Assembly: GCF_902506195.1 (NCBI RefSeq)
Contig: NZ_LR732817.1
Span: 3,641,635-3,705,634, forward strand
DNA from: Citricoccus sp. K5
GTDB lineage: Bacteria > Actinomycetota > Actinomycetes > Actinomycetales > Micrococcaceae
Reading direction: 5' to 3'
Length of the DNA: 64,000 nucleotides
Part shown: piece after piece, positions 10,926-29,542 of the stretch
Numbering within the stretch: position 1 is the stretch's first letter
How the letters are laid out: each line of letters begins with the position of its first letter
Notes under the pieces: generated by a model
What the model was told of the DNA's origin: nothing
The model's database searches: none
What the model saw: the letters and a program-made list of their open reading frames with translations, nothing else
Program-made: the position numbers and the translations under genes

Positions 10926-11046
10926 TCAGCGCCATTGGTACTGCTTGACAGGGCGGTCATCCCACCGGAACCGGGTCCATGATTCTTTGAGCAGGCGGCG
11001 GATCACGATGATGGCGTTGGCCAGGTGCGTCCAGGCCTGTTGGAAG
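10926..11046 (-). pseudogene. C-terminal fragment of a transposase
   Basis: On the minus strand the frame reads QQAWTHLANAIIVIRRLLKE, then SWTRFRWDDRPVKQYQWR and a stop. This matches the C-terminal tail of a DDE transposase; the IS family (IS5-like is my guess) is not settled. The rest of the gene is absent. Confidence 0.45.
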
Positions 11047-11143
11047 CAAACGCGACATCATCCGCTGCCTGAAACGCTACGTGATTCGAGAGGTCTACCA
11101 CCTCGTCAAAACCGACCCAAGAACGGGCGAAATCGCGAGTTGA
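11042..11143 (+). pseudogene. IS110-family transposase C-terminal fragment
   Basis: The plus-strand frame reads GSKRDIIRCLKRYVIREVYH followed by LVKTD and a stop at 11141-11143. RCLKRYxxREVY is the typical end of IS110-family transposases. Only about 30 residues remain of roughly 400. Confidence 0.6.
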
Positions 11144-11144
11144 C

Positions 11145-11396
11145 AACTATAGGAGCATCAACGCCCTGGCCGAGACCGTGAATGGCTACTACAAGGCCGA
11201 ACTGATCCGCGGGCCCGCCCGCGAAGGGCGCCCGTGGAAGACCGTCGAGGACGTCGAGCTCGCCACCCTCAGCTGGGTCCACTGGCACAACCAGACCCGC
11301 CTGCACGGCTACCTGAATGACGTGCCGCCAACAGAGTTCGAGGAAACGTTCTACGCTACGAAGCGGACCGACCAGACCTTGGTCGGAATCCAATAG
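11145..11396 (+). pseudogene. IS3-family transposase OrfB C-terminal fragment
   Basis: The frame reads NYRSINALAETVNGYYKAEL, then TVEDVELATLSWVHWHN and RLHGYLNDVPPTEFEE. This is the C-terminus of an IS3-group integrase-core transposase, with the last catalytic Glu region and the HWHNxxRLHGYL block. About 84 of some 300 residues survive. It directly abuts the IS110 fragment, which marks a deletion junction. Confidence 0.75.
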
Positions 11397-12411: not shown

Positions 12412-12983
12412 TCTTGTCTCTCCAAGGTGCGTAATGAGTCCCAGGCTGTGTTTGTTTGCGAGTGAGAGTAACCACCTGGTGGTTATCTGGATATTTCCAG
12501 TAAGTGAGCTGGATCTCAAGGCCTGACGGACAAGTCCGCCGGCGCAGCGCATGAGCAAAAGGGCCCAGCATGACCCCGAGGTCCCCGGCCAGCTCACCAG
12601 CCTCATCAACGTCACCGCCCGAGCCGTTCAGTCCGTTCGAGAACTGCACAGCTGCCCGTGAGGCTGGCGCGGCCCCGGTCCACGCCGATTCGCTTGGGTA
12701 TGCGCCCCATCTGGATGGCATTGGTGATGGAGTCGGCTGCGAGTAGTGACCGCCCAGGAAGGGTCGCGATTCGATTCAAGCCCAACCCACCATCTAAATG
12801 ATTCGCGATAAACGATCGATAGACGGGAGTCCCGGCACCGCAGCGATTCCCGCTTCAGCCCATCCCGTCATCCGCGAGTTCTCAGCCCGTGAAATTCCTG
12901 AATAACGGGTATCAGTCAGGTTGGCCGCATCAAAGGGTGCCTCTTGGAGTTTTTGGGAGTGACGCGTGGCTCCATTGTGGCGG
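12412..12983. other. Low-information stretch before the Tn402-type left end
   Basis: No strong gene is present. A 36-residue frame (ATG 12551 to TGA 12661, MSKRAQHDPEVPGQLTSLIN...) reads like a helical fragment and may be a gene remnant. The stretch ends at the terminal repeat at 12984. Confidence 0.35.
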
Positions 12984-13008
12984 TGTCAGTTTCAGAAGTC
13001 GACGGCAC
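12984..13008 (+). repeat. Tn402/Tn5053-type terminal inverted repeat (left end, reading inward to the right)
   Basis: The 25 bp begin TGTCAGTTTCAGAAGTC and finish GACGGCAC. They match the known Tn5053/Tn402 end pattern TGTC-x-x-TTTCAGAAG-x-x-G-x-x-x-CAC. A second internal unit, ATCAGAAGTGGCC, follows at about 13012-13025, as in tni-type ends where TniA binds several sites. The outer five bases are GGCGG. Confidence 0.7.
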
Positions 13009-13074
13009 TGATATCAGAAGTGGCCTTCACGGATCGCCATGGTGACGTCGGAGGTGTTCCGTAGGGGGATCCTC

Positions 13075-14286
13075 ATGCGGGTGCTCAACCGGGTCGATGG
13101 AGTGATCATCGCGATTCGGGTTGTGATCCGTAGACTCCTACTTATGGACCTTCTAGACCTGGGGCGGATCATTGTCGGGTTGGTGCTGCTGGTGCTGGGC
13201 GGGGAGGTACTGGTGCGAGGGGCCTCCGCCCTGGCTCGTCGAGCGGGGGTTTCCTCCCTGGTGGTCGGGCTCACCGTGGTCTCGGCGGCCACGTCGGCGC
13301 CCGAGCTTTCGGTGAGTATCGGTGCGGTCCTGCGCGACGAACCCGGACTGGCGGTGGGCAATGTGGTCGGCAGCAACATTGCTAACGTCTTGCTCATTCT
13401 CGGCCTCTCCGCTCTAGTTCTGCCGCTGGCCGCGACACAACGGTTGGTGCGCTTTGATCTCCCCCTGATGCTTTCTCTGTCCGCGGCGCTGCTGCTGGTC
13501 TGCCTCGACGGGGTGATCAGCGCGGTAGACGGGCTAATCCTGTTCGGTGCCGTGGTCGCTCACACCGTGCTGACCGTCACCATCGGCCGCAGAAGGACAC
13601 AGTCCAAGGCCCCTGTTATGCAGCTGGCTGAGGGTTCCCCGGGTATCGGCACCTCCGCCCAGGCCCAGAAACTGCCTGTGGCCTCGAGCGGAAAGTCGAT
13701 TCTGCTCGTGGTGTTCGGAGTTGCTCTCCTGGTAACCGGGGCCACGCTCCTCGTCGAGGGCGCGGTGAACACCGCCACCACGCTCGGGGTGAGCAGCCTA
13801 GTGGTCGGTTTAACCGTCGTGGCCATCGGCACATCTCTGCCTGAGCTGGCGACTTCCCTCATCGCCGTGCGCCGTGGCGAACGTGACTTGGCGATTGGCA
13901 ACGTGGTCGGCAGCAACATCTTCAACATCGGAGTCGTGCTCGGGTTGCCAGCCATGATCTCCCTCGAGGGCATTCCCGTATCCAGCGCCGCCCTGGCCTT
14001 CGATATCCCGGTAATGTTGGCGGCCGCGATCGCCTTGCTGCCCGTAGCCTTCACCGGCTTCACGGTGGCGCGATGGGAAGGCGCCCTGTTCGTAGCCCTG
14101 TATCTGGTTTACCTCGGGTATCTCATCCTGGCTGCCACCGCACACGACGCACTGGAAGGATTTACCGCCGTGATGGCATGGTTTGTCCTCCCATTGATCA
14201 CAGTGACGCTGATCGCCTTCACCGCATACGAAATCGGGCTGCGTAAGGGCCGACAAAGCAGCGGCACAACCCCCCGTCCGTCCTGA
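13075..14286 (+). CDS. Calcium/sodium (CaCA-type, YrbG-like) antiporter
   Basis: This cation/Ca2+ exchanger has two homologous halves. Each carries the alpha-repeat: GLTVVSAATSAPELSVSIGA with GNVVGSNIANVLLILGL in the first half, and GLTVVAIGTSLPELATSLIA with GNVVGSNIFNIGVVLGLP in the second. The acidic PEL residues and the GSNxxN motifs are the ion-binding core. About ten hydrophobic helices are present. The ATG at 13075 has the site AGGGGGA; an ATG at 13144 would remove 23 residues and gives a more usual N-terminus. It is the first cargo gene inside the Tn402-type left end. The ion exchanged cannot be decided. Confidence 0.85.
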   Translation: MRVLNRVDGVIIAIRVVIRRLLLMDLLDLGRIIVGLVLLVLGGEVLVRGASALARRAGVSSLVVGLTVVSAATSAPELSVSIGAVLRDEPGLAVGNVVGSNIANVLLILGLSALVLPLAATQRLVRFDLPLMLSLSAALLLVCLDGVISAVDGLILFGAVVAHTVLTVTIGRRRTQSKAPVMQLAEGSPGIGTSAQAQKLPVASSGKSILLVVFGVALLVTGATLLVEGAVNTATTLGVSSLVVGLTVVAIGTSLPELATSLIAVRRGERDLAIGNVVGSNIFNIGVVLGLPAMISLEGIPVSSAALAFDIPVMLAAAIALLPVAFTGFTVARWEGALFVALYLVYLGYLILAATAHDALEGFTAVMAWFVLPLITVTLIAFTAYEIGLRKGRQSSGTTPRPS

Positions 14287-14838: not shown

Positions 14839-15819
14839 TCAGGCGCATCCGGACAGGGCGGCACCGAGGTAGGGCAGGTACACGATCGTGGCCAGTAGGA
14901 CGAGCGTGGCCAGGTAGGAGGTGGTCGTGAGCGCGGCGAGCAATCCGGCCGGTCCGGTGTGCGGTTGCACGAGATGGCGGATCCGGTCGGGACCGAGGGC
15001 GTGCAAGGCTCCGTCGAGGGGTGCCTCATGCCCAGCGTGGTGGGCGTGCTCGCCGAGGGTGAGCAGGGCGCTGGCCAGGGCGGGGGTTCCGACGCGGCGG
15101 CGGGCGGCGTCGTCGGCGGCGATCTCGAGGTAGTGCCCGAGCGCGTCCTCGACGGCGGCCATTATTGGCAGCCAGCGCAGGGGCCGGCAGATGCTGGCCA
15201 CGGTGGTGGTGATCAGGTGGTGGCGCTGATACAGGTGGGCATGTTCGTGGGCCAGGACTGCGGCGAGTTCATCGCGGGTCAGGGCTCGTAACGCCCCCTT
15301 GGAGATGAAGATTCCGCCGTGGCGCCGCGGGAGTGTCAGGGCGAACGGTCGGGAGTCGTCGATGATGAGCACGCTGTGACCGAGGATCTGTCGGGGCTCG
15401 GCCCAGACTCGCAGCCGGTGCGCGGTGCGCGTGGTCGCCCGGCGTTGCCGGTGGGCCTCGGCGCCGACCATGATGGCAAGGCCGGCAGCACCCAGTGCAG
15501 ACAGGGCCAGCAACACCGCAGCGGGAATCCCGGTGTCGATGGTTGCGGTGGGGAACGGGTTGGCGGCGGCGAGGCAGCGCTGGCAGACGTCGGCGGCGCT
15601 GCCGGGTAAGAGCACCGGGCCGGAGGTGATCCACGCCAGCAGTGGCCCGAGGGCGAGGGCGGTGATGACCCAGCTGACAACGCTGCCGGTGAGTAGCGCC
15701 GCGGAGGTCCGGGGTGCGCGGACCAGTGCGGGAGCAGCCCGTCTGAGCACCCACGGGCCGGCCAGCGCCGAGACGGTCAGTGCGAGGACCAGCATTACGG
15801 TGAGACTCTCCGCGATCAC
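14839..15819 (-). CDS. M56-family membrane metalloprotease (BlaR1/MecR1-like sensor without penicillin-binding domain)
   Basis: This 326-residue integral membrane protein has the M56 zinc site H191-E-H-A-H195 and a downstream EIAAD (E232) as likely third ligand. Membrane segments lie at about 5-22, 42-65, 97-119 and at the C-terminus. Proteins of this family cleave a paired BlaI/MecI-type repressor on sensing a signal. There is no penicillin-binding domain. The loop between helices 2 and 3 has C79-Q-R-C82, a possible redox or metal sensor. The start overlaps the stop of the blaI-like gene by 4 bp. Confidence 0.87.
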   Translation of the reverse strand: MIAESLTVMLVLALTVSALAGPWVLRRAAPALVRAPRTSAALLTGSVVSWVITALALGPLLAWITSGPVLLPGSAADVCQRCLAAANPFPTATIDTGIPAAVLLALSALGAAGLAIMVGAEAHRQRRATTRTAHRLRVWAEPRQILGHSVLIIDDSRPFALTLPRRHGGIFISKGALRALTRDELAAVLAHEHAHLYQRHHLITTTVASICRPLRWLPIMAAVEDALGHYLEIAADDAARRRVGTPALASALLTLGEHAHHAGHEAPLDGALHALGPDRIRHLVQPHTGPAGLLAALTTTSYLATLVLLATIVYLPYLGAALSGCA

Positions 15820-16211
15820 CGCCCCCCTCCGTCCGCTCCATCCGTGCGCGCACGCAGGTAGTTGCGCAGCAGGTCGAGGTCGGTGGGAGGGATCGTGTCG
15901 ATGAAGTGCAGCATGGACGCGGTACGGTCGCGGCTGGATTCCAGGGCGTGCCTCATCACGGAGGCGACATGCTCCTCCCTGGGGATCCTCGCCTCGTAGC
16001 GCGTGGAGTGGCCCTGCCGCAGGGCGGTGACCAGCTTCTTGCCGTCGAGGTTGCGGAGCACGGTGGCGATCGTGGTGTAGGCCGGGTCGTGAGACAGCCG
16101 GTTGATGATGTCCCTGATGGTGCCGGGACCGTGATCCCAGAGCGCGTCCATCACTTGTGCTTCCAGGGCACCCAGGCGGGGTGGTTCTGCTGCGAGTCCA
16201 GGCGTGGTCAT
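15816..16211 (-). CDS. BlaI/MecI/CopY-family repressor
   Basis: This 131-residue winged-helix repressor contains LGALEAQVMDALWDHGPGTI, RDIINRL, AYTTIATVLRNLDGKKLV and a C-terminal dimerisation helix. The family binds palindromes as a dimer and is inactivated by proteolysis by its M56 partner, here the next gene. The ATG at 16211 overlaps the upstream membrane-protein stop by 4 bp. The tandem GACTAT-N5-ATAGTC operators just upstream of the operon are the expected target. Confidence 0.9.
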   Translation of the reverse strand: MTTPGLAAEPPRLGALEAQVMDALWDHGPGTIRDIINRLSHDPAYTTIATVLRNLDGKKLVTALRQGHSTRYEARIPREEHVASVMRHALESSRDRTASMLHFIDTIPPTDLDLLRNYLRARTDGADGGGR

Positions 16212-16783
16212 CGGGCGGTCTCCATCCTCGGGGTAGGGACTGGGCAGGCGAACTGTCCGCGGAGTCGGCCCAGCAGGGCGATGCCGGTCAGCAGCAGGGC
16301 GCCGAGGGCGAGGTACGGCTGGATGGGGGCGAACCAGGTGATGGCCCCGGAGTAGCCCAGCGCTAGCAGGGCAAGCTTGTTGCACACCGGGCATCCCACG
16401 GCGAACCATGCCAGCAGGCCCCCGGCGACACCGAGCCGGCTCGTGCGCTGTTCCGCAGCATCACTGCCGTCCTCCACCCTAACGCGGCTCGTCGGGGCGG
16501 CCGCGCCGGCGGTGTCGACGCGCCCGCGCACGTAGGTGGCCACGAGCATCCCGGACAGTACGGAGGTGAGGACCCATACCGGGTAGTTCCACCACACCGG
16601 GGGGATCTCGCGGGTGAAGAACGTGTTGGGGATCAATACCGTCGCCAGCCCCAGCACCAGGCCGAACACCAGTGCCGCTGCTGTCGCGACCAGCACCTGG
16701 CGCCCCGTCCATGATCGGAGCGCCTGAACGGCCTCGGTGATGGACCGGGTCGCGAATGTCGGTTGGCGCGGTGCAGTCCTCAT
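16208..16783 (-). CDS. Membrane protein with CPVC motif
   Basis: This 191-residue protein has about four hydrophobic helices and a conserved-looking segment, WFAVGCPVCNKLALLALGYS, followed by WFAPIQPYLALG. CPVC could be a redox pair within the membrane. It is the first gene of the minus-strand operon with the repressor and M56 protease, divergent from a DsbA-CcdA operon. This context suggests a role in thiol-disulfide exchange or in sensing. The family is known to me only as an uncharacterised actinobacterial membrane protein. Confidence 0.65.
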   Translation of the reverse strand: MRTAPRQPTFATRSITEAVQALRSWTGRQVLVATAAALVFGLVLGLATVLIPNTFFTREIPPVWWNYPVWVLTSVLSGMLVATYVRGRVDTAGAAAPTSRVRVEDGSDAAEQRTSRLGVAGGLLAWFAVGCPVCNKLALLALGYSGAITWFAPIQPYLALGALLLTGIALLGRLRGQFACPVPTPRMETAR

Positions 16784-16804
16784 GGCTCCATCCTGCCCGA
16801 GGAT

Positions 16805-16838
16805 GACTATGAATCATAGTCGACTATGTAAGATAGTC
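16805..16838. promoter_or_regulatory. Two tandem BlaI-type operators in the divergent promoter
   Basis: GACTAT-GAATC-ATAGTC (16805-16821) and GACTAT-GTAAG-ATAGTC (16822-16838) are perfect 6-bp palindromes with 5-bp spacers, directly abutting. They lie between the starts of the minus-strand repressor operon (16783) and the plus-strand DsbA operon (16881), so both would be repressed together. The sequence is certain; binding by the BlaI-like protein is inferred. Confidence 0.8.
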
Positions 16839-16880
16839 GATCGTGGCATCAAAGCGTCAGCGAGGAAAGGGCCCCGAGGC

Positions 16881-17615
16881 ATGAACGCACAGAACGGTTC
16901 AACGAAGAAGAGAGCCTGGATGGTGCCCGCCGTCCTGGTGGCCGTCGCGGTCCTCCTGGTCGGGACAGTGATGATGTCCGCCCTGGGCGGTTCAGGCTCC
17001 GACGGCGCTGCTGCACCATCGACACCGGTGGAGTCGGCGCCGACACAGGTCGAGGGACCGCCGGATCTATCCGAGGCCGAACGCCACGACCCCGACGACC
17101 TGCTCGCAGCCGGCCCGGTGGAAGCGCCGGTGACGCTCGTGGTCTTCTCTGACTACCAGTGCCCGTTCTGTGCGCGCTGGAGCGAGGAGACCCTTCCGCT
17201 GATGATGGAGCACGTTCAGGCCGGTGACCTGCGCATCGAATGGCGGGACGTCAATGTGTTTGGTCCGGCCTCGGAGCGGGCCGCCCGCGCCTCCTATGCG
17301 GCCGCACTGCAGGGGGCGTTCTGGGAGTACCACGACGCCCTGTTCCAGGACGGGCAGAAGCGGTCCGAGGGGCAGCTGAGCGAGGAGGCGCTGACCGCCC
17401 TGGCCGAGGAACTCGGGTTGGATCCCGACCAGTTCGCCGAGGACATGGACTCGGCTCAGACGGCCGAGCAGATCGCCACCAATGAACAGCTGGGGCTGGG
17501 GCTGGGCGCCTACTCGACCCCGACGTTTGTGCTGGGAGGCCAACCCATCGTCGGCGCCCAGCCCTCGCAGGTGTTCCAGGACGCCTTCGACCAGGCCCTG
17601 ACCGGATCGGAGTGA
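16881..17615 (+). CDS. DsbA-family protein (membrane-anchored)
   Basis: This 244-residue protein has an N-terminal membrane anchor (about 12-35), an acidic/Ser/Pro linker, and a DsbA thioredoxin fold with active site C94-P-F-C97 and cis-Pro loop STPTFVLGGQ. It belongs to the DSBA/BdbD group acting outside the membrane on disulfides. The ATG at 16881 follows GAGGAAAGG and the BlaI-type operators. The CcdA-like gene starts 6 bp after its stop, so one function may be a reductive or isomerase branch fed by CcdA. Confidence 0.9.
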   Translation: MNAQNGSTKKRAWMVPAVLVAVAVLLVGTVMMSALGGSGSDGAAAPSTPVESAPTQVEGPPDLSEAERHDPDDLLAAGPVEAPVTLVVFSDYQCPFCARWSEETLPLMMEHVQAGDLRIEWRDVNVFGPASERAARASYAAALQGAFWEYHDALFQDGQKRSEGQLSEEALTALAEELGLDPDQFAEDMDSAQTAEQIATNEQLGLGLGAYSTPTFVLGGQPIVGAQPSQVFQDAFDQALTGSE

Positions 17616-17621
17616 GTCCGT

Positions 17622-18482
17622 ATGGATATTGGATTGCTCAGCGCCTTCCTGGGCGGGGTCCTGGCCCTGCTCAGCCCGTGCGCGGCCCTGTTGATGCCCG
17701 CGTTCTTCGCCTCCACCGTCGGGGCCGGGCCCCGGTTGCTCGCCCATGGGGCGGTCTTCTACGTCGGATTGTTGCTCGTGCTGGTGCCCCTGGGCGTGGG
17801 CGCGGGGGCCATTGGGACTCTTTTCGCCACGCACCGCGAGGTGATCGTGCTCAGTGCCTCGGTGCTGCTGGTGGTGCTGGGCGTAGTGCAGTTGCTCGGG
17901 TTCGGGTTCGACCCGGCCCGGCTGTTGCCCGGCGCGGCCCATCTGCAAGAGCGGGCGACCACGGCCACCGGATGGGCCAAGACGCTGCTGCTGGGCGCCG
18001 CCAGCGGGGTTGCTGGCTTCTGCGCCGGCCCGATCCTTGGCGCCGTGCTCACTCTGGCCGCCGCCCGAGGTGACATGGTCTCCGCCGGGACACTGCTGGC
18101 CGTCTACGGGGCCGGTATGGTCGCCCCGTTGCTGCTGATCGCCGCACTCTGGGGCCGCTTGGGGGCCCGGGGCCGGCGGGTGCTGCGTGGCCGGGCCTTC
18201 ACGGTCTTCGGCCGCGAACTGCACAGCACCTCCATGCTCACCGGGTTCATCCTCATCGGAGTGGGCGTCGTCTTCTGGACCACCAACGGCCTGGTCACCG
18301 CCCCGGAGTTGCTGCCTTTGGAGGCCCAGGCCTGGTTGCAGGAGGGGTCGGCGGTCCTGGCCAATCCGGTCGTGGACATCCTTGCCATCCTGGTCCTGGT
18401 CTGCGCGGTGCTCATCGTGTGGGCGCGGCGACGACGGCGCGACCGCTCCACGGCAGGCACCCGCCCAGTGGGCGGATCATGA
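17622..18482 (+). CDS. CcdA/DsbD-type thiol-disulfide electron transporter
   Basis: This 286-residue protein has six or more membrane helices. The two conserved cysteines of CcdA lie in LLSPCAALLMPAFF (helix 1) and GVAGFCAGPILGAVLT (helix 4). CcdA moves electrons from cytoplasmic thioredoxin across the membrane to extracytoplasmic thiol proteins. It lies between a DsbA-like protein and a lipoprotein, under the BlaI-type operators. It could also serve the ResA-ResB-CcsA set at 41-45 kb, which lacks its own CcdA. Confidence 0.85.
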   Translation: MDIGLLSAFLGGVLALLSPCAALLMPAFFASTVGAGPRLLAHGAVFYVGLLLVLVPLGVGAGAIGTLFATHREVIVLSASVLLVVLGVVQLLGFGFDPARLLPGAAHLQERATTATGWAKTLLLGAASGVAGFCAGPILGAVLTLAAARGDMVSAGTLLAVYGAGMVAPLLLIAALWGRLGARGRRVLRGRAFTVFGRELHSTSMLTGFILIGVGVVFWTTNGLVTAPELLPLEAQAWLQEGSAVLANPVVDILAILVLVCAVLIVWARRRRRDRSTAGTRPVGGS

Positions 18483-19657
18483 TCCGTGGCCTCCGGGCCC
18501 TGGCTCTCATCATGGCCGTGGTTCTGGCCTTGACCGGGTGCGCTGGTGGGCTACCGGAGCCGGTGCGGGACCCGCATCCGGCCGAGGAGCCGCTGCCCGC
18601 GGTGGATACCCGTGCCCTGCGGCTGCCCACACCCTTCACGGGGTTGAGGGTGGTGGACCCCGGGTGGACCAGCGCCCCGCAATACGCTGACGGCATCTTC
18701 GTGGGGGTCGCAGAACAGGAGGCTCTGTGGCGGTTCTCCGCTGTCGATGTCCACGGTCAAGTGCGGTGGGTGGCCGAGCGCCCCGCTGAGGACACCGGGT
18801 TCGCGCTCACCGCCGACGCCGACGGGCGTTCACTGGCCGTGCTCACGGACGCCCACCAGGGATCCGGCACCGAGCCCGACACGGTCACCGCGACGGCCTA
18901 CGTGTTGGCTACCGGGGAACACGTGTGGGGTCCCGTGGAGGTTCCCGGTCCCCAGGTGGGGCCCGGCCTCGTCTTCGCTCGACCATCCGAGGATCCGGCG
19001 GCGAGGGTGAGGTCGCGCACGGTCCTGGATTCAACCACCGGCCGCGCCGTGCCCTCGATATCCGACTCCTCCGACCGGGTCGTCGGCGAATACCACGGGA
19101 CGGTGCTCGTCAGCGGAGACCACACCCTCACCGCACTGGACATCGCCGATGACCAAGAACTCTGGAGCATCCCGTTGGCCGAGCACGGTGAGGTCATCGC
19201 CGCCGTGGACTCCTCCGGGACTGCAGCCGCCGCGAACGGGCTGGTCCTGCTGGAGACCGAGCACTCCCGGGGTTTGCTCATTGATCTGCGCAACGGCGCC
19301 ATCCTCAGCGACACGGCCCGCGACGCCGCCGCGGACCCTGGTACGGGCGCCGTCGTCATTCTGGACGAGGCCGGCCTGCATGCGACCCGGGACGGTCAGC
19401 AATTGTGGTCATTCACCGTCGCCAGCGACACTCGTCTCGCCGCGCTTGGCGGGGCCCTGGTTTACCTGCGGGACGACGAAGCAGTCCGGGTGCACAACGT
19501 CATCACCGGCGAGGTCGCCGACGCCTACGACCCCACCGGGACCGGCACCATCCTCGTCCCGGCGCACCTCACCGCAGAGGGGGCCGCGCTGTTTGTGGGC
19601 AAGGGGTCACGTCACCTCATCGTCACCCTCGTCCCTGAACCGGGCGCCTCTGGTTGA
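18479..19657 (+). CDS. Lipoprotein with PQQ-like beta-propeller repeats
   Basis: This 392-residue protein has a signal peptide ending in the lipobox LTGC (MAVVLALTGCAG). Propeller-like repeats follow, such as VLATGEHVWGPV, TALDIADDQELWSIPLAE, LLIDLRNGAILSDT and ATRDGQQLWSFTV. The repeats match PQQ/BamB-like propellers, used as scaffolds outside the membrane. The ATG overlaps the ccdA stop by 4 bp. Being third in the operon suggests it helps fold or dock secreted proteins; no catalytic residues are seen. Confidence 0.75.
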   Translation: MIRGLRALALIMAVVLALTGCAGGLPEPVRDPHPAEEPLPAVDTRALRLPTPFTGLRVVDPGWTSAPQYADGIFVGVAEQEALWRFSAVDVHGQVRWVAERPAEDTGFALTADADGRSLAVLTDAHQGSGTEPDTVTATAYVLATGEHVWGPVEVPGPQVGPGLVFARPSEDPAARVRSRTVLDSTTGRAVPSISDSSDRVVGEYHGTVLVSGDHTLTALDIADDQELWSIPLAEHGEVIAAVDSSGTAAAANGLVLLETEHSRGLLIDLRNGAILSDTARDAAADPGTGAVVILDEAGLHATRDGQQLWSFTVASDTRLAALGGALVYLRDDEAVRVHNVITGEVADAYDPTGTGTILVPAHLTAEGAALFVGKGSRHLIVTLVPEPGASG

Positions 19658-20156: not shown

Positions 20157-20765
20157 TCAGCGGGCTTGCAGGGCGGTGGGGACCTGGTCGAAGAAGGAGG
20201 TCAGGGATGGAACCGCCTCGACGCGGTTCCACGGCATGCGGGACAGTATCGAGGCCATCGCGCAGGAGTCAGAGGCGGCGGAGTAGGCCAGGCCGGCGCC
20301 GATCGCCCCTGCCACCAGGCCCAGGCGGCGGTGCACCAGCTGGCCGGCCAGGGTGCCGGCCAGCACCAGGGTGCCGGCAGTCAGGCGGACCTGGCGGTCC
20401 ATGGCCCACCGGTTGCCCCGGCGCACGACGTCGTCTCCGCCGGCCGCCTCGTAGGCGGCGACACCGCCCTCGAGCACCTCTGCGGATTCGAAACCGACGG
20501 CCTGCAGCTTCTGCCGGGCCTGGCCGGCGCGGGTGCCGGACTGGCACACCAGCACGACGTGTCCGGCCAGACGCTCTGCGAGGTCATCGGTGTGCTCGGT
20601 GAGCAGGTCCAGCGGCACGTTGTAGGAGCCGCGGATGTGCACGGTCTCGAACTCGCCCGGGGTGCGAACGTCGACGACCATCAGGTCCTGGTCCTGGTTC
20701 AGTCTTTGGCGCAGCTCGTCCGGGGTGACCGAACGGGTCTTAGGTGCGGTGGCGGTTACGGTCAT
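20157..20765 (-). CDS. Rhodanese-domain protein with DUF2892 membrane tail
   Basis: This 202-residue protein joins an N-terminal rhodanese domain (about 12-115, active-site loop CQSGTRA) to a C-terminal DUF2892-like membrane hairpin (MDRQVRLTAGTLVLAGTLAG). The layout matches YgaP. Rhodanese domains carry persulfide on the active cysteine and hand it to acceptors. Its start overlaps the stop of the CstB-like gene by 4 bp, so both are made together from the CstR-box promoter. Confidence 0.88.
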   Translation of the reverse strand: MTVTATAPKTRSVTPDELRQRLNQDQDLMVVDVRTPGEFETVHIRGSYNVPLDLLTEHTDDLAERLAGHVVLVCQSGTRAGQARQKLQAVGFESAEVLEGGVAAYEAAGGDDVVRRGNRWAMDRQVRLTAGTLVLAGTLAGQLVHRRLGLVAGAIGAGLAYSAASDSCAMASILSRMPWNRVEAVPSLTSFFDQVPTALQAR

Positions 20766-22225
20766 CGGGCGGCTCCTGAGGTTTCGTTCTGCACTGTGGT
20801 GGTGTTCTGGGCGGTGTCCTGTCCGGTGTTCCAGGCGGACCAGGCGGCGTAGCTGCCCTCAAGCTCGACGACGTCGTAACCGGTCCGGCGCAGGGCGGCG
20901 GCGGCCACGGCGTTGCGCACCCCGGACTGGCAGTAGGTCACCAACGGGCCAGCGTCCTTCGCGGGCAGCTCGTCCTGGTAGAAGAGCACCTTGCCGGCGT
21001 TGAGCTGTCGGGAGCCGGGAACATGGCCCTCGGAGTGCTCGGTGCGGTTGCGCACGTCCACCAGCACGGCGGAGTCATGCTCAGCCAGGAAGGCGTCCAG
21101 TTCGGCCGGGGCGACGGTCTGCGGGATGGATGCCGGCAGGCCTTCCAGGGTCGGGGTGTAGCCGACCAGACCATCCACGCCCACGCGCACGAAGTGGTCG
21201 CCGTACTCGGCGGCGGCCTGCGCATCCTCGGCCAGCACGACCAGGCCGGCGTCATCGGCCTCCGGGTCGTACGCCCAACCGATGTGGGTGGCGGCCTTAC
21301 CCAGCGACGGGACGCTCAAGGCTCCGGGCACGGTGCCGGCGTGCACTTGATCCACCGGGCGGGTATCCACGAGGGCCAAGGTGCCATCGGACAGGCCTCG
21401 GGCCAGTTCGTCGGCGGTGAAGGAGCGCGGGGCCGAGCGCTCACCGAGCAGGGCCGGGCCGACCTTGTTCTGCCGCTTCATCCGGGCGAAGTAGGCATGC
21501 GCGTCCGGCTGGCCCTCGAGCAGTTCGTCGATGAAGCCCTGCTCGTCGTTGTTGGCCAGGTAGGTGGCCCACCAGGCGAACTTGCGCTCATAGCCCACCG
21601 TGGTGGACGGCAGGGCGCCCAGGGCCTTGCCGCACGCCGAGCCAGCCCCGTGGCCGGGGTAGACCTGCACGTGGTCCGGCAGGGTCAGGAAGGCCTCCTT
21701 CAGGGAGGCGAACAGGTCCTTGGCCCCGGCGAAGCGGGTGTCCTGGGCCCCGGCGGCCTCGTCCAGCAGATCCGGGCGACCCACGTCACCGGAGAACACG
21801 AAGTCCCCGGTCAGGTAGTAGCCGGGCTCGTCGGTGAAGGCCCCATCGGTGACCAGGTAAGACAGGTGCTCGGGGGTGTGGCCGGGGGTGTGGCGGGCGC
21901 TGACGGTGATGTTGCCCAGAGCGATGGTGTCGCCCTCACGCAGCAGCTCGGCGTCAAAGCCATATGCCCAGTCCTCCCCGCCCTCGCCGGAAACGTAGAG
22001 GGTGGCGCCGGTGGCCGCGGCGAGTTCGCGGGTGCCGGAGAGGAAGTCGGCGTGGATGTGGGTCTCGGCCACGACGGTAATCCGCATGCCGTGGTGGGCG
22101 GCCAGCTCCAGGTACTGCCGGATGTCGCGGCGGGGGTCGACGACGAGGGCCTCGCCGGTGGCCTGGCAGCCGATCAGGTAGCTGGCCTGGGCCAGGTCCT
22201 CGTCGTAGATGCGCTCGAGAAGCAT
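20762..22225 (-). CDS. CstB-like persulfide dioxygenase-sulfurtransferase (MBL fold plus two rhodanese domains)
   Basis: This 487-residue protein has a metallo-beta-lactamase domain (THIHADFLSG, GHTPEHLSYL, GDFVFSGDVGRPD, YPGHG). It continues into a rhodanese domain without active cysteine (VDTRPVDQVHAGTVPGA) and a C-terminal rhodanese domain with CQSGVRN. This is the domain order of CstB, which oxidises persulfide to thiosulfate or sulfite using non-haem iron. The ATG at 22225 has the site GCAGGAGGAATC. Two CstR-like boxes lie 50-85 bp upstream. It is the main enzyme of the sulfide-detoxification regulon. Confidence 0.9.
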   Translation of the reverse strand: MLLERIYDEDLAQASYLIGCQATGEALVVDPRRDIRQYLELAAHHGMRITVVAETHIHADFLSGTRELAAATGATLYVSGEGGEDWAYGFDAELLREGDTIALGNITVSARHTPGHTPEHLSYLVTDGAFTDEPGYYLTGDFVFSGDVGRPDLLDEAAGAQDTRFAGAKDLFASLKEAFLTLPDHVQVYPGHGAGSACGKALGALPSTTVGYERKFAWWATYLANNDEQGFIDELLEGQPDAHAYFARMKRQNKVGPALLGERSAPRSFTADELARGLSDGTLALVDTRPVDQVHAGTVPGALSVPSLGKAATHIGWAYDPEADDAGLVVLAEDAQAAAEYGDHFVRVGVDGLVGYTPTLEGLPASIPQTVAPAELDAFLAEHDSAVLVDVRNRTEHSEGHVPGSRQLNAGKVLFYQDELPAKDAGPLVTYCQSGVRNAVAAAALRRTGYDVVELEGSYAAWSAWNTGQDTAQNTTTVQNETSGAAR

Positions 22226-22273
22226 GATTCCTCCTGCGGGTCGGGAGCGAAAGTTCGGGTTCCGGCGTTCCGG

Positions 22274-22310
22274 ATACCCCCTACCGTATTGCATACCCCC
22301 CTGGGTATGC
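22274..22310. promoter_or_regulatory. CsoR/CstR-type operator pair upstream of the CstB-like gene
   Basis: GCATACCCCCCTGGGTATGC (22291-22310) is a 20-bp palindrome, and ATACCCCCTACCGTAT (22274-22289) is a second, imperfect site next to it. The ATACCCCC...GGGTAT pattern is typical of CsoR/CstR operators. The same motif recurs at 30011-30047 before the CstR-like gene. The pair sits between the minus-strand CstB-like operon and the plus-strand gene at 22531 and may control both. Confidence 0.8.
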
Positions 22311-22530
22311 AAGTGGGGGCGTGCGGTCGAACGCGCGTCTTAGCGGGCGTGCCCCGTTCGCCAGGGATTTGCTGGTGACCGGGAGTTCACCCGGGAGGAG
22401 CCGGTGGGTAGGGTGGCCGATACCTGACGGTACGAGGCGGTAGCGGTGCTGAAGCTGTCCCGACCCCGTAATTGCGATCTCCGTCAAGTCCTACCCAAGC
22501 GAAGGGCGATGATCGAGTGAAAGGACGGCC

Positions 22531-28214: not shown

Positions 28215-28592
28215 TCAGGCCTGCTCGGTCCGGTCGGACTGGGCGGCCGCCTGGGCATGGACCTGGACCATGTCCAGGTCCTTCACGGCGGTGATGACCT
28301 GTTCGAGGGCAGGCGCAGGCAAGGCGCCGGGCTGGGAGAAGACCAGCACGCCCTCGCGGAAGGCCATCAGGGTGGGGATGGAGCTGATGCCCGCAGCGCC
28401 AGCCAGGGCCTGCTCGGCCTCGGTGTCGACCTTGGCGAAGACCACGTCGGGGTGCTGGGCCGAGGCGGCCTCGTAGGTGGGGGCGAACCGGCGGCAGGGC
28501 CCGCACCAGCCCGCCCAGAAGTCCACGAGCACAATGTCATTTTCCTGGATGGTGCCGGCGAAGTCCTGGTCGGTGACGTCGATGGTGGCCAT
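28215..28592 (-). CDS. trxA: Thioredoxin
   Basis: This is a classical thioredoxin of 125 residues: MATIDVTDQDFAGTIQENDI, active site WAGWCGPCRRFAP, cis-Pro SSIPTLMAFREG, and a C-terminal Gln/Ala-rich tail of about 20 residues beyond the usual fold. AAGGAGACCCCC precedes the ATG. It lies between the TauE-like gene and the MFS genes under the CstR-box promoter. It may reduce persulfides on rhodanese or DsrE proteins and feed electrons to CcdA. Confidence 0.93.
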   Translation of the reverse strand: MATIDVTDQDFAGTIQENDIVLVDFWAGWCGPCRRFAPTYEAASAQHPDVVFAKVDTEAEQALAGAAGISSIPTLMAFREGVLVFSQPGALPAPALEQVITAVKDLDMVQVHAQAAAQSDRTEQA

Positions 28593-28669
28593 GGGGGTCT
28601 CCTTGTCAGTGATGATCGGTCGTCTGCGGTCGGTGTAGACCGACGGGAACAGGAAGGGGTGGAGGACGC

Positions 28670-29542
28670 TCAGGTGGGGTTGGTGGTGCCGGCGGTGCGG
28701 ATCGGGCAGCTGGGCACGGCGAACCAGCACACGGCGGCGGCCACGGCCGCCAGGGCGGCGACCGCCCCGACGATCATTCCGGTGGCCCCGGGCAACTCCT
28801 GGACCAGGACGAAGACGCCCATGATGAGCACGAACACCCCGAAGCCCTTACGCAGGGCGGCCTCCGGGATCCGCCCGGCCAGCCGGGCCCCGAGCACCGA
28901 TCCGGCGATCGCGGCGGCGGTCACAGCCCCGACCAGCACCCAGTCCAGGGACACGGTGGTCAGGTACCCGGCCAGTCCGGCGAAGGACTTCATCGCGATC
29001 ACTACTAGGGAGGTGCCCACTGCCACGGGCATGGACAACCCGCCCAGCAGGGCCAGGGCGGGCACGATGAGGAAGCCACCACCGGCGCCGACCAGGCCGG
29101 TGACCAAACCGACGACCAGGCCCTCGGCCAGGACCTTGAGGATCGGCAGTTCGCCCTCGTGGGTCGTCGCGGCCTTGTTCTTGCGGCCACGGATCATGGC
29201 CACCGAGGTGGCCACCATCATCAGGGCGAATGCGATCATCAGGACGGTACCGGGGATGTATCCGCCCAGCAGGCCGCCACCGAAGGCCCCGGCCATGCCG
29301 GCGGCACCGAAGATCAGCCCAGTGCGCCACTTGACCCGCTGGTTGCGGGCGTGGGTGATGGCGCTGAAGGCGGAGGTGACTCCGACGACGAACAGGGACG
29401 CGGCGATCGCCTCCTTGGGATCCAGACCGGCGACGTAGGTCAGGATCGGCACGGTCAGGATCGATCCGCCGCCGCCGAGCAGGCCCAGGGAGAGCCCGAT
29501 CAACACCGAGAGCAGCAGGGTCAGAAGAAGGGTGAGCGTCAT
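28670..29542 (-). CDS. TauE/SafE-family sulfite exporter-like membrane protein
   Basis: This 290-residue protein has eight membrane helices and TauE landmarks: SLGLLGGGGSILTVPIL, PKEAIAASLFVVGVTSAFSA, GLVGAGGGFLIVPALALLGG and PVAVGTSLVVIAMKSFAG. The family exports sulfite, thiosulfate or sulfoacetate-type anions. Rhodanese comes 51 bp before and thioredoxin 77 bp after. The product of the CstB-like enzyme is sulfite or thiosulfate, so this exporter is the logical exit for it. Confidence 0.9.
   Translation of the reverse strand: MTLTLLLTLLLSVLIGLSLGLLGGGGSILTVPILTYVAGLDPKEAIAASLFVVGVTSAFSAITHARNQRVKWRTGLIFGAAGMAGAFGGGLLGGYIPGTVLMIAFALMMVATSVAMIRGRKNKAATTHEGELPILKVLAEGLVVGLVTGLVGAGGGFLIVPALALLGGLSMPVAVGTSLVVIAMKSFAGLAGYLTTVSLDWVLVGAVTAAAIAGSVLGARLAGRIPEAALRKGFGVFVLIMGVFVLVQELPGATGMIVGAVAALAAVAAAVCWFAVPSCPIRTAGTTNPT

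Follow-up and report, generated by a model that had tools for sequence, protein, structure and literature searches.

The 64,000-nucleotide stretch of the Citricoccus sp. K5 genome analysed here (GCF_902506195.1, contig NZ_LR732817.1, positions 3,641,635 to 3,705,634; hereafter the window) carries, at positions 14839 to 19657, two divergent operons that meet at a pair of palindromic candidate operators. One encodes a BlaI-type repressor and an M56-type membrane zinc protease, and the other a set of proteins for thiol/disulfide chemistry. Judging from the sequence, the repressor, the protease and their targets very likely form a regulatory circuit. On balance, we think it probable that the whole arrangement is a BlaI/M56 switch with outward-facing cysteines that controls extracytoplasmic thiol/disulfide operons.

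On the minus strand, the gene for a membrane protein with a CPVCNK motif and a further cysteine, C180 (16208–16783, hereafter the CPVC protein; no Pfam family at cut-off) precedes those for the repressor (15816–16211) and the protease (14839–15819). The plus strand encodes a DsbA/DsbG-like secreted thioredoxin-fold protein with a CPFC motif (16881–17615), a CcdA-type thiol electron transporter that retains its SPC and CxGP cysteines (17622–18482) and a lipoprotein with a BamB-like beta-propeller domain, PQQ_2 (18479–19657). A Pfam scan bore out this gene content, which an earlier note on the same DNA had put forward as two divergent operons: the DsbA-like protein matches DSBA (E 9.5e-21, 74.9 bits, cut-off 25.6) and the transporter DsbD_TM (E 3.6e-12, 46.5 bits, cut-off 27.1). 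Gene calls made in-house skipped overlapping genes and served as leads only.

The two abutting, exact GACTAT-N5-ATAGTC palindromes that the earlier note had described are indeed present between the operons, whose gene starts lie at 16783 (minus strand) and 16881 (plus strand). Candidate operator 1 occupies 16805–16821 (GACTATGAATCATAGTC) and candidate operator 2, 17 nucleotides from it, 16822–16838 (GACTATGTAAGATAGTC). With up to two mismatches allowed, the window holds two matches against 0.25 expected, a number reached in 4 of 100 shuffles by a test that ignores the exactness and adjacency of both copies. The whole 3.88 Mb genome contains no exact copies beyond these two, and a search of it for further ACTAT-N5-ATAGT sites within one mismatch, which would have indicated an extended regulon, found none. 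A minus-strand sequence that weakly resembles a promoter (16840–16813) overlaps both palindromes, which fits an operator and is by itself no evidence for one.

A survey of genomes for the same neighbourhood and palindrome, as the earlier note had suggested, revealed a patchy actinobacterial module. Of 297 genomes from the order to which the window belongs, 45 have a homologue of the CPVC protein, a figure that counts the window's genome, and 40 of the other 44 were examined with their flanks (G064, G103, G104 and G150 were left out). Seventeen of the resulting loci (L041–L057) have genes for BlaI, the CPVC protein, DsbA, CcdA and the lipoprotein, and 16 of these have M56 too. Scanning named genomes with the M56 alignment gave, among the best 80 of 240 relatives, 11 loci whose M56 protein carries a CxxC motif (L083–L093), from Isoptericola, Thermocrispum, a Microbacterium plasmid, Corynebacterium, Leucobacter, Brevibacterium, Nesterenkonia, an Ancrocorticia metagenome-assembled genome (MAG) and an Actinomycetes MAG. 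Two of them duplicate earlier loci (L089 is L055 and L092 is L051) and were excluded from the counts, as was G765, which is L093 by coordinates. Searches at the level of phylum and class, with a threshold of E 1e-40, returned M56 matches from 3 of 396 and 5 of 394 genomes respectively (both counts include the window's genome) and added three new loci. Two of these, L196 and L197, hold the module: both have the divergent genes and the operator, and their M56 proteins carry the CxxC and the C-terminal cysteine. At the locus with the weakest match, L198 (E 2.5e-41), the M56 protein is of a Cys-plus-Cys type described below and is accompanied by BlaI, DsbA, CcdA, a lipoprotein homologue and a second DsbA; an operator of the ACTAT-N5-ATAGT type was not found there. 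The module total is therefore taken as 29 loci, window included, of which four (L086, L087, L091 and L196) lack a lipoprotein match. The few matches in the phylum and class searches suggest that the module is rare and patchy in actinobacteria, and it is once plasmid-borne.

Comparison of these loci ties operator, regulator and targets to one another. The ACTAT-N5-ATAGT core is found in 28 of the 29 module loci, exactly in 26 and one base off in two (L055 and L057), and the exact cores sit upstream of the CPVC or DsbA gene. CPVC, DsbA and CcdA are missing as well from L091, the sole module locus without the core, and none of the 23 loci that have a CPVC homologue but no BlaI shows an exact core. 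Where the operons are separated (L045, L049 and L087), each has a site of its own, the one on the CPVC side of L049 being one base off. Across 26 genomes there are 43 exact sites, 36 of them at the module and 40 beside module genes, dsbA-ccdA paralogues or one plasmid gene. In G128 (L187) two tandem exact sites, 44 kb away from the module, separate a dsbA paralogue from divergently oriented ccdA-dsbA paralogues, and on the Microbacterium plasmid (L085) two tandem exact sites precede a gene for a secreted protein. The remaining three exact sites (G256, G184 contig 37 and G300 contig 6) were set aside as chance, since a reversed-pattern control also gave three; the G184 site falls within a gene, and the stretches around the three contain no DsbA or CcdA relatives. 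Chance occurrence of the palindromes as a whole was rejected on the whole-genome counts together with the reversed-pattern control. It is well supported by these sequence comparisons that the palindrome is the likely operator of the BlaI/M56 pair, and that the pair belongs with both divergent operons.

The 49 sites collected have the consensus ACTAT[GC]NNN[GC]ATAGT with variable spacer bases, where the invariance of the core holds by construction, the sites having been gathered by pattern. Tandem neighbours in this set are spaced 16 or 17 nucleotides apart in 18 of 18 cases. L196 has three sites with 17-nucleotide spacing, and in L197 a second site that is one base off lies at 20 nucleotides, outside this range. 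Some genes near the sites deserve separate mention. Behind the tandem operators of L085, positions 12929–13549 encode a 194-residue protein with a membrane segment followed by three cysteines, possibly sortase-like by eye and without a Pfam or NCBIfam match at E 0.001. Near the distant G128 operators, L187 3346–4011 encodes a fusion of an ArsR regulator with a rhodanese-like part, for which HTH_metalloreg passes its cut-off and BigR and PspE do not. At 3 kb from the outlying G256 site begins a CHWCH-motif gene that looks thioredoxin-like by eye.

The repressor itself is a member of the Pfam family Penicillinase_R (E 1.7e-23, 83.6 bits, cut-off 22.6). Its closest solved relative is 2g9w (E 2.4e-14), which we take to be Mycobacterium tuberculosis BlaI, Rv1846c, and its profile also matches Staphylococcus aureus BlaI (1sd4) and MecI (1okr). 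Residues L101-H102-F103 of the window protein align with L-N-F of 1sd4, placing the predicted scissile bond at H102-F103; S. aureus BlaI is cleaved between Asn101 and Phe102 according to the available text of PMC9834060. The cleavage site is conserved across the module, with phenylalanine in 17 of the 18 repressors checked and leucine in L052.

Assignment of the protease to M56 rests on its fold, its BlaI neighbourhood and its topology, as the Pfam profile Peptidase_M56 falls below cut-off (22.7 bits against 31) and Peptidase_M48 passes (38.9 bits against 20.3). For the AlphaFold2 model (mean predicted local distance difference test score, pLDDT, 88.4; predicted template modelling score, pTM, 0.85), no structure reached E 0.001 in Foldseek, where BlaR1 chains scored between E 0.05 and 0.73. 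In a second look with VIA-align, restricted to Foldseek's candidates, the best solved match was S. aureus BlaR1 (8exs_A; Z 11.6, root mean square deviation 6.1 over 225 residues, model residues 9–277). The M48 proteases BepA (Z 10.0) and ZMPSTE24 (Z 9.7) come close, leaving BlaR1 a lead of 1.6 Z, and other folds score Z 4.8 or less among the matches listed. By this comparison the predicted fold is BlaR1-like. The catalytic signature is complete: H191, E192 and H195 of the HEHAH motif (191–195) and E232, corresponding to HExxH plus a downstream glutamate between helices 3 and 4, are invariant in 75 sequences (the window and 74 of 80 loci; L085, L122, L149, L151, L160 and L162 were left out).

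As the earlier note had stated, the protease has no penicillin-binding domain. Pfam detects none, the chain ends at residue 326, four residues past the last helix, and the C-terminal class D beta-lactamase-like sensor domain of BlaR1 and MecR1 is thus missing from the window protein. The BlaI/M56 ancestry of the pair could nevertheless point to a response to beta-lactams or cell-wall stress, as in bla/mec, with incidental control of thiol genes. Against this stand the missing sensor domain and the neighbourhood: within the window, none of the ten proteins scanned between 14839 and 24482 is a beta-lactamase or penicillin-binding protein, and the nearby protein of metallo-beta-lactamase fold bears rhodanese domains. 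We regard such a response as highly improbable and set beta-lactam sensing aside, the window offering neither a sensor domain nor neighbours to match.

Three conserved, outward-facing cysteines appear instead to stand in place of the penicillin sensor. The C79-Q-R-C82 motif noticed earlier lies, as described, between helices 2 and 3, and its conservation in orthologues, the lack of which the note would have counted as a refutation, was confirmed: CxxC is present in 28 of 28 module M56 proteins, down to 37% identity, with V, I, L or A before the first cysteine. It occurs in none of the 69 other M56 proteins of the same scan, one of them cyanobacterial (L149). A tail cysteine that the note had not mentioned, C325 near the C-terminus of the window protein, is conserved in 27 of the 28, though L054 has it one residue off; that of L085 is unreadable, the M56 frame being broken. 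The other 69 proteins fall into 29 with a single loop cysteine and a tail cysteine, four with the loop cysteine only, none with the tail cysteine only and 36 with neither, and this co-occurrence would be expected if loop and tail act together.

The charge pattern of the protein also speaks to where these residues lie. In 17 of 17 proteins, the helix 1-2 loop and the segment past helix 3 have a positive net charge, and that of the helix 2-3 loop is zero or negative. This is compatible with the Nout-Cout topology given for BlaR1 in the available part of PMC9834060, and on this basis C79-x-x-C82 and C325 are placed outside the membrane. The same source proposes extracellular loop 1 of BlaR1 (EL1, 56–96), which matches the helix 2-3 loop, as a signalling loop.

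A different reading of these features is that M56 is a constitutive protease limiting the level of BlaI, the signal coming from elsewhere and the cysteines being structural. The protease does lack a sensor domain, its cysteines could make a fixed disulfide, and L057 has BlaI and an operator without an adjacent M56 gene. The CxxC motif is, however, preserved through the divergence noted above, and the window BlaI has no cysteine at all, so that a thiol or persulfide signal cannot affect it by way of a cysteine. We hold constitutive proteolysis to be improbable and cysteine-based sensing by M56 to be likely.

Conservation extends to the target proteins. Among 27 loci examined, the DsbA CxxC is kept in 26 of 26 loci with the gene and the CcdA SPC and CxGP cysteines likewise in 26 of 26. 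Both CPVC cysteines and C180 are present in all 41 aligned proteins of the CPVC family, as CPVCNK in 40 and CPGCNK in L076; its predicted model (pLDDT 72, pTM 0.58) was too weak for a fold search. The earlier note had the sensor freeing folding genes through cleavage of the repressor. The link between BlaI/M56 and the operon stands by comparison, and the label of folding genes is tentative, as CcdA and the DsbA/DsbG-like protein may equally form a reducing or sulfur-relay pathway.

Taken together, these features suggest how the switch might operate. A BlaI dimer on the tandem ACTAT[GC]N3[GC]ATAGT operators would repress both divergent operons, its own included. M56 would be a membrane protein whose active site faces inward and whose three cysteines, in the CxxC loop and past the last helix, face outward. 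A change in the state of these cysteines, whether a disulfide, a persulfide or polysulfide, or the binding of a soft metal, would be transmitted to the zinc site. We infer that derepression follows by cleavage: M56 would sever the repressor at its counterpart of the Asn101-Phe102 bond in S. aureus BlaI, allowing expression of the CPVC protein, the DsbA-like protein, CcdA and the lipoprotein. CcdA would send electrons outward to the DsbA-like protein, and the physiological outcome would be a restored thiol/disulfide or sulfane-sulfur balance outside the cell.

The gene neighbourhoods offer some insight into the signal. In the window, the module is followed by minus-strand genes for a protein with rhodanese and YgaP-like membrane domains (20157–20765) and for a metallo-beta-lactamase-fold/rhodanese protein (20762–22312), of persulfide dioxygenase type by architecture, with no equivalog model above cut-off. 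Further along, on the same strand, are genes for a thioredoxin (28215–28730) and a TauE/SafE sulfite exporter (28670–29542). A persulfide-dioxygenase match occurs in 7 of 27 module loci (five at 63% identity or more, two weak) and in 0 of 69 other M56 loci, and a CsoR-family gene in 6 of 27 against 1 of 69. The CsoR proteins of these sulfur clusters have two cysteines and lack the histidines before the second cysteine that are seen in the CsoR of L150. In Streptomyces, sulfane sulfur is detected by a two-Cys CsoR whose circuit includes persulfide dioxygenase, rhodanese and TauE, as set out in the available text of PMC7533328. Where CPVC, DsbA and CcdA occur without BlaI in the stretch examined (L059, L070, L071, L074, L079 and L080), four of six loci have a persulfide-dioxygenase match, compared with 2 of 17 remaining CPVC loci without BlaI, one of them weak. 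A close persulfide-dioxygenase-type gene is found in 9 of 18 module genomes and in 43 of 279 other genomes of the order. In the Ancrocorticia MAG (L091, 2942–9972), the CxxC M56 protein and BlaI stand behind NrfD/DsrP-like, TtrA-like and ferredoxin-like genes, the usual operator being missing; the TtrA-like protein is a molybdoenzyme nearest to tetrathionate reductase, its 427 bits falling below the cut-off of 1750. The sulfur neighbours and the context of L091 point to sulfur or thiol chemistry, and thiol/sulfane-sulfur stress is the signal that fits best, a preference over metal rather than a result.

Several observations weigh against this interpretation of the system. The fold match is moderate (Foldseek E 0.05), and a Z under about 13 may reflect a common helical arrangement. 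The module genomes are related, L084 and L085 being 98.8% identical and L046 and L088 about 91%, so the counts overstate independence; the Fisher tests ignore phylogeny and are descriptive. L057 retains BlaI and a one-off operator with no M56 gene alongside, and sulfur genes accompany a minority of module loci, as the persulfide-dioxygenase counts above show; in the stretches examined, the majority of these loci have none of the sulfur genes named. Lastly, copper ATPases lie near 7 of 29 M56 proteins with loop and tail cysteines and 1 of 36 without cysteines (shared ancestry uncorrected), which favours metal. In the same comparison DsbA or CcdA genes lie near 6 of 29 and 0 of 36, again with shared ancestry uncorrected, and the four loop-only proteins (including that of L098, with a weak DsbA match and a copper ATPase) belong to neither class of these neighbour tests.

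The copper counts fit the main rival reading, an otherwise identical circuit whose three cysteines serve as binding sites for copper or another soft metal, which would make it a metal-stress switch like cyanobacterial PetR/PetP. DsbA and CcdA are required under copper-driven disulfide stress, and several Cys-pair loci have ACTAT-N5-ATAGT before ctaE-, CtaG- or SCO1-like genes (SCO1 by Pfam). PetRP is itself a BlaI/BlaR1-like pair, for which the available text of a commentary, PMC7896320, proposes copper-dependent protease activity. At the module proper, however, copper ATPases lie near just 2 of the 27 loci, where persulfide-dioxygenase matches and CsoR-family genes number seven and six, and the module-locus CsoR resembles the two-Cys Streptomyces sulfane-sulfur sensor (PMC7533328, as far as its text is available), without the L150-type histidines. 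We consider a metal-stress switch rather unlikely, though a serious contender, and prefer a thiol or sulfane-sulfur signal.

Related sites were also seen beyond the module. At loci with other Cys-bearing M56 proteins, exact ACTAT-N5-ATAGT copies (L098 9666, L108 5409, L114 12821, L124 12030, L128 13295, L129 8112 and L151 558) precede genes for CtaG-like (by eye), CcdA, SCO1/SenC (Pfam) and cytochrome oxidase subunit III-like (by eye) proteins and blaI, and a respiratory/copper regulon under the same kind of switch is possible. In six loci whose M56 has neither loop nor tail cysteine, ACTAC-N5-GTAGT, with one base changed per half-site, stands just before blaI (L094 8234, L134 8256, L141 8354, L147 8347, L157 8240 and L162 434). 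More tentatively, and with some doubt on our part, the cysteines of the loop and of the end of the last helix could form a redox clasp of general use, standing in for the penicillin sensor in a large actinobacterial class of M56 proteases that sense extracytoplasmic thiol, sulfane-sulfur or copper state; the CxxC-plus-Cys form would then govern DsbA-CcdA-CPVC, and the Cys-plus-Cys form respiratory, copper and other thiol genes.

A few features of individual loci bear on the history of the module. L084 177–7717 (Thermocrispum municipale) and L085 5325–12863 (the Microbacterium plasmid) share their 98.8% identity over 7.5 kb, suggesting recent transfer of the module between distant genera, and in the plasmid copy the M56 and CPVC frames are broken. 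At L057 6457–8054, the place of M56 is taken by two small genes that look by eye like a toxin-antitoxin pair of the helix-turn-helix/PIN kind. To the left of the module in the window, 10945–11396 holds short frames that may mark an island edge, presumably the remnant of an IS3-type transposase (by eye, from a motif).

The module appears to work like bla/mec, with a different sensor and target. With Staphylococcus BlaI/BlaR1 and MecI/MecR1 it shares divergent repressor-controlled operons, the BlaI family, a BlaR1-like M56 fold as far as the model goes, and the phenylalanine at the cleavage site. It differs in having no penicillin-binding sensor domain, three probably outward cysteines, an ACTAT-N5-ATAGT operator and thiol/disulfide targets; the staphylococcal bla/mec operator is TACA-N2-TGTA. 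In Synechocystis PetR/PetP, too, a BlaI/BlaR1-like pair answers to a signal other than beta-lactams and has a very small regulon, but its targets are plastocyanin and cytochrome c6 and the proposed signal is copper (PMC7896320, available text). M. tuberculosis BlaI, the closest solved relative (2g9w), has blaC and the ATP synthase operon as targets in the accessible parts of PMC7924339 and PMC12565901, and the M56 proteins of six other mycobacteria in the set (L097, L104, L121, L124, L128 and L161) have one loop and one tail cysteine and no CxxC. The CsoR-like sulfane-sulfur circuit of Streptomyces coelicolor comprises the same set as the module's recurring neighbours (two-Cys CsoR-like protein, persulfide dioxygenase, rhodanese and TauE), but there the sulfane-sulfur-sensing repressor is cytoplasmic and no membrane protease takes part; DsbA does not appear in the available text of PMC7533328. 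The earlier note knew of no described BlaI/M56 system with a thiol/disulfide target, and we found none among the literature matches listed, in which subscription journals are largely uncovered.

To our knowledge, little is known of the means by which actinobacteria detect disulfide or sulfur stress on the outer side of the membrane. The system described here would offer a one-step protease-repressor relay for this, with three cysteines as the would-be sensor, an operator whose position is mapped and a regulon that comprises two operons in this genome. If it acts as we propose, it suggests a role for M56 proteases that have no penicillin-binding domain.

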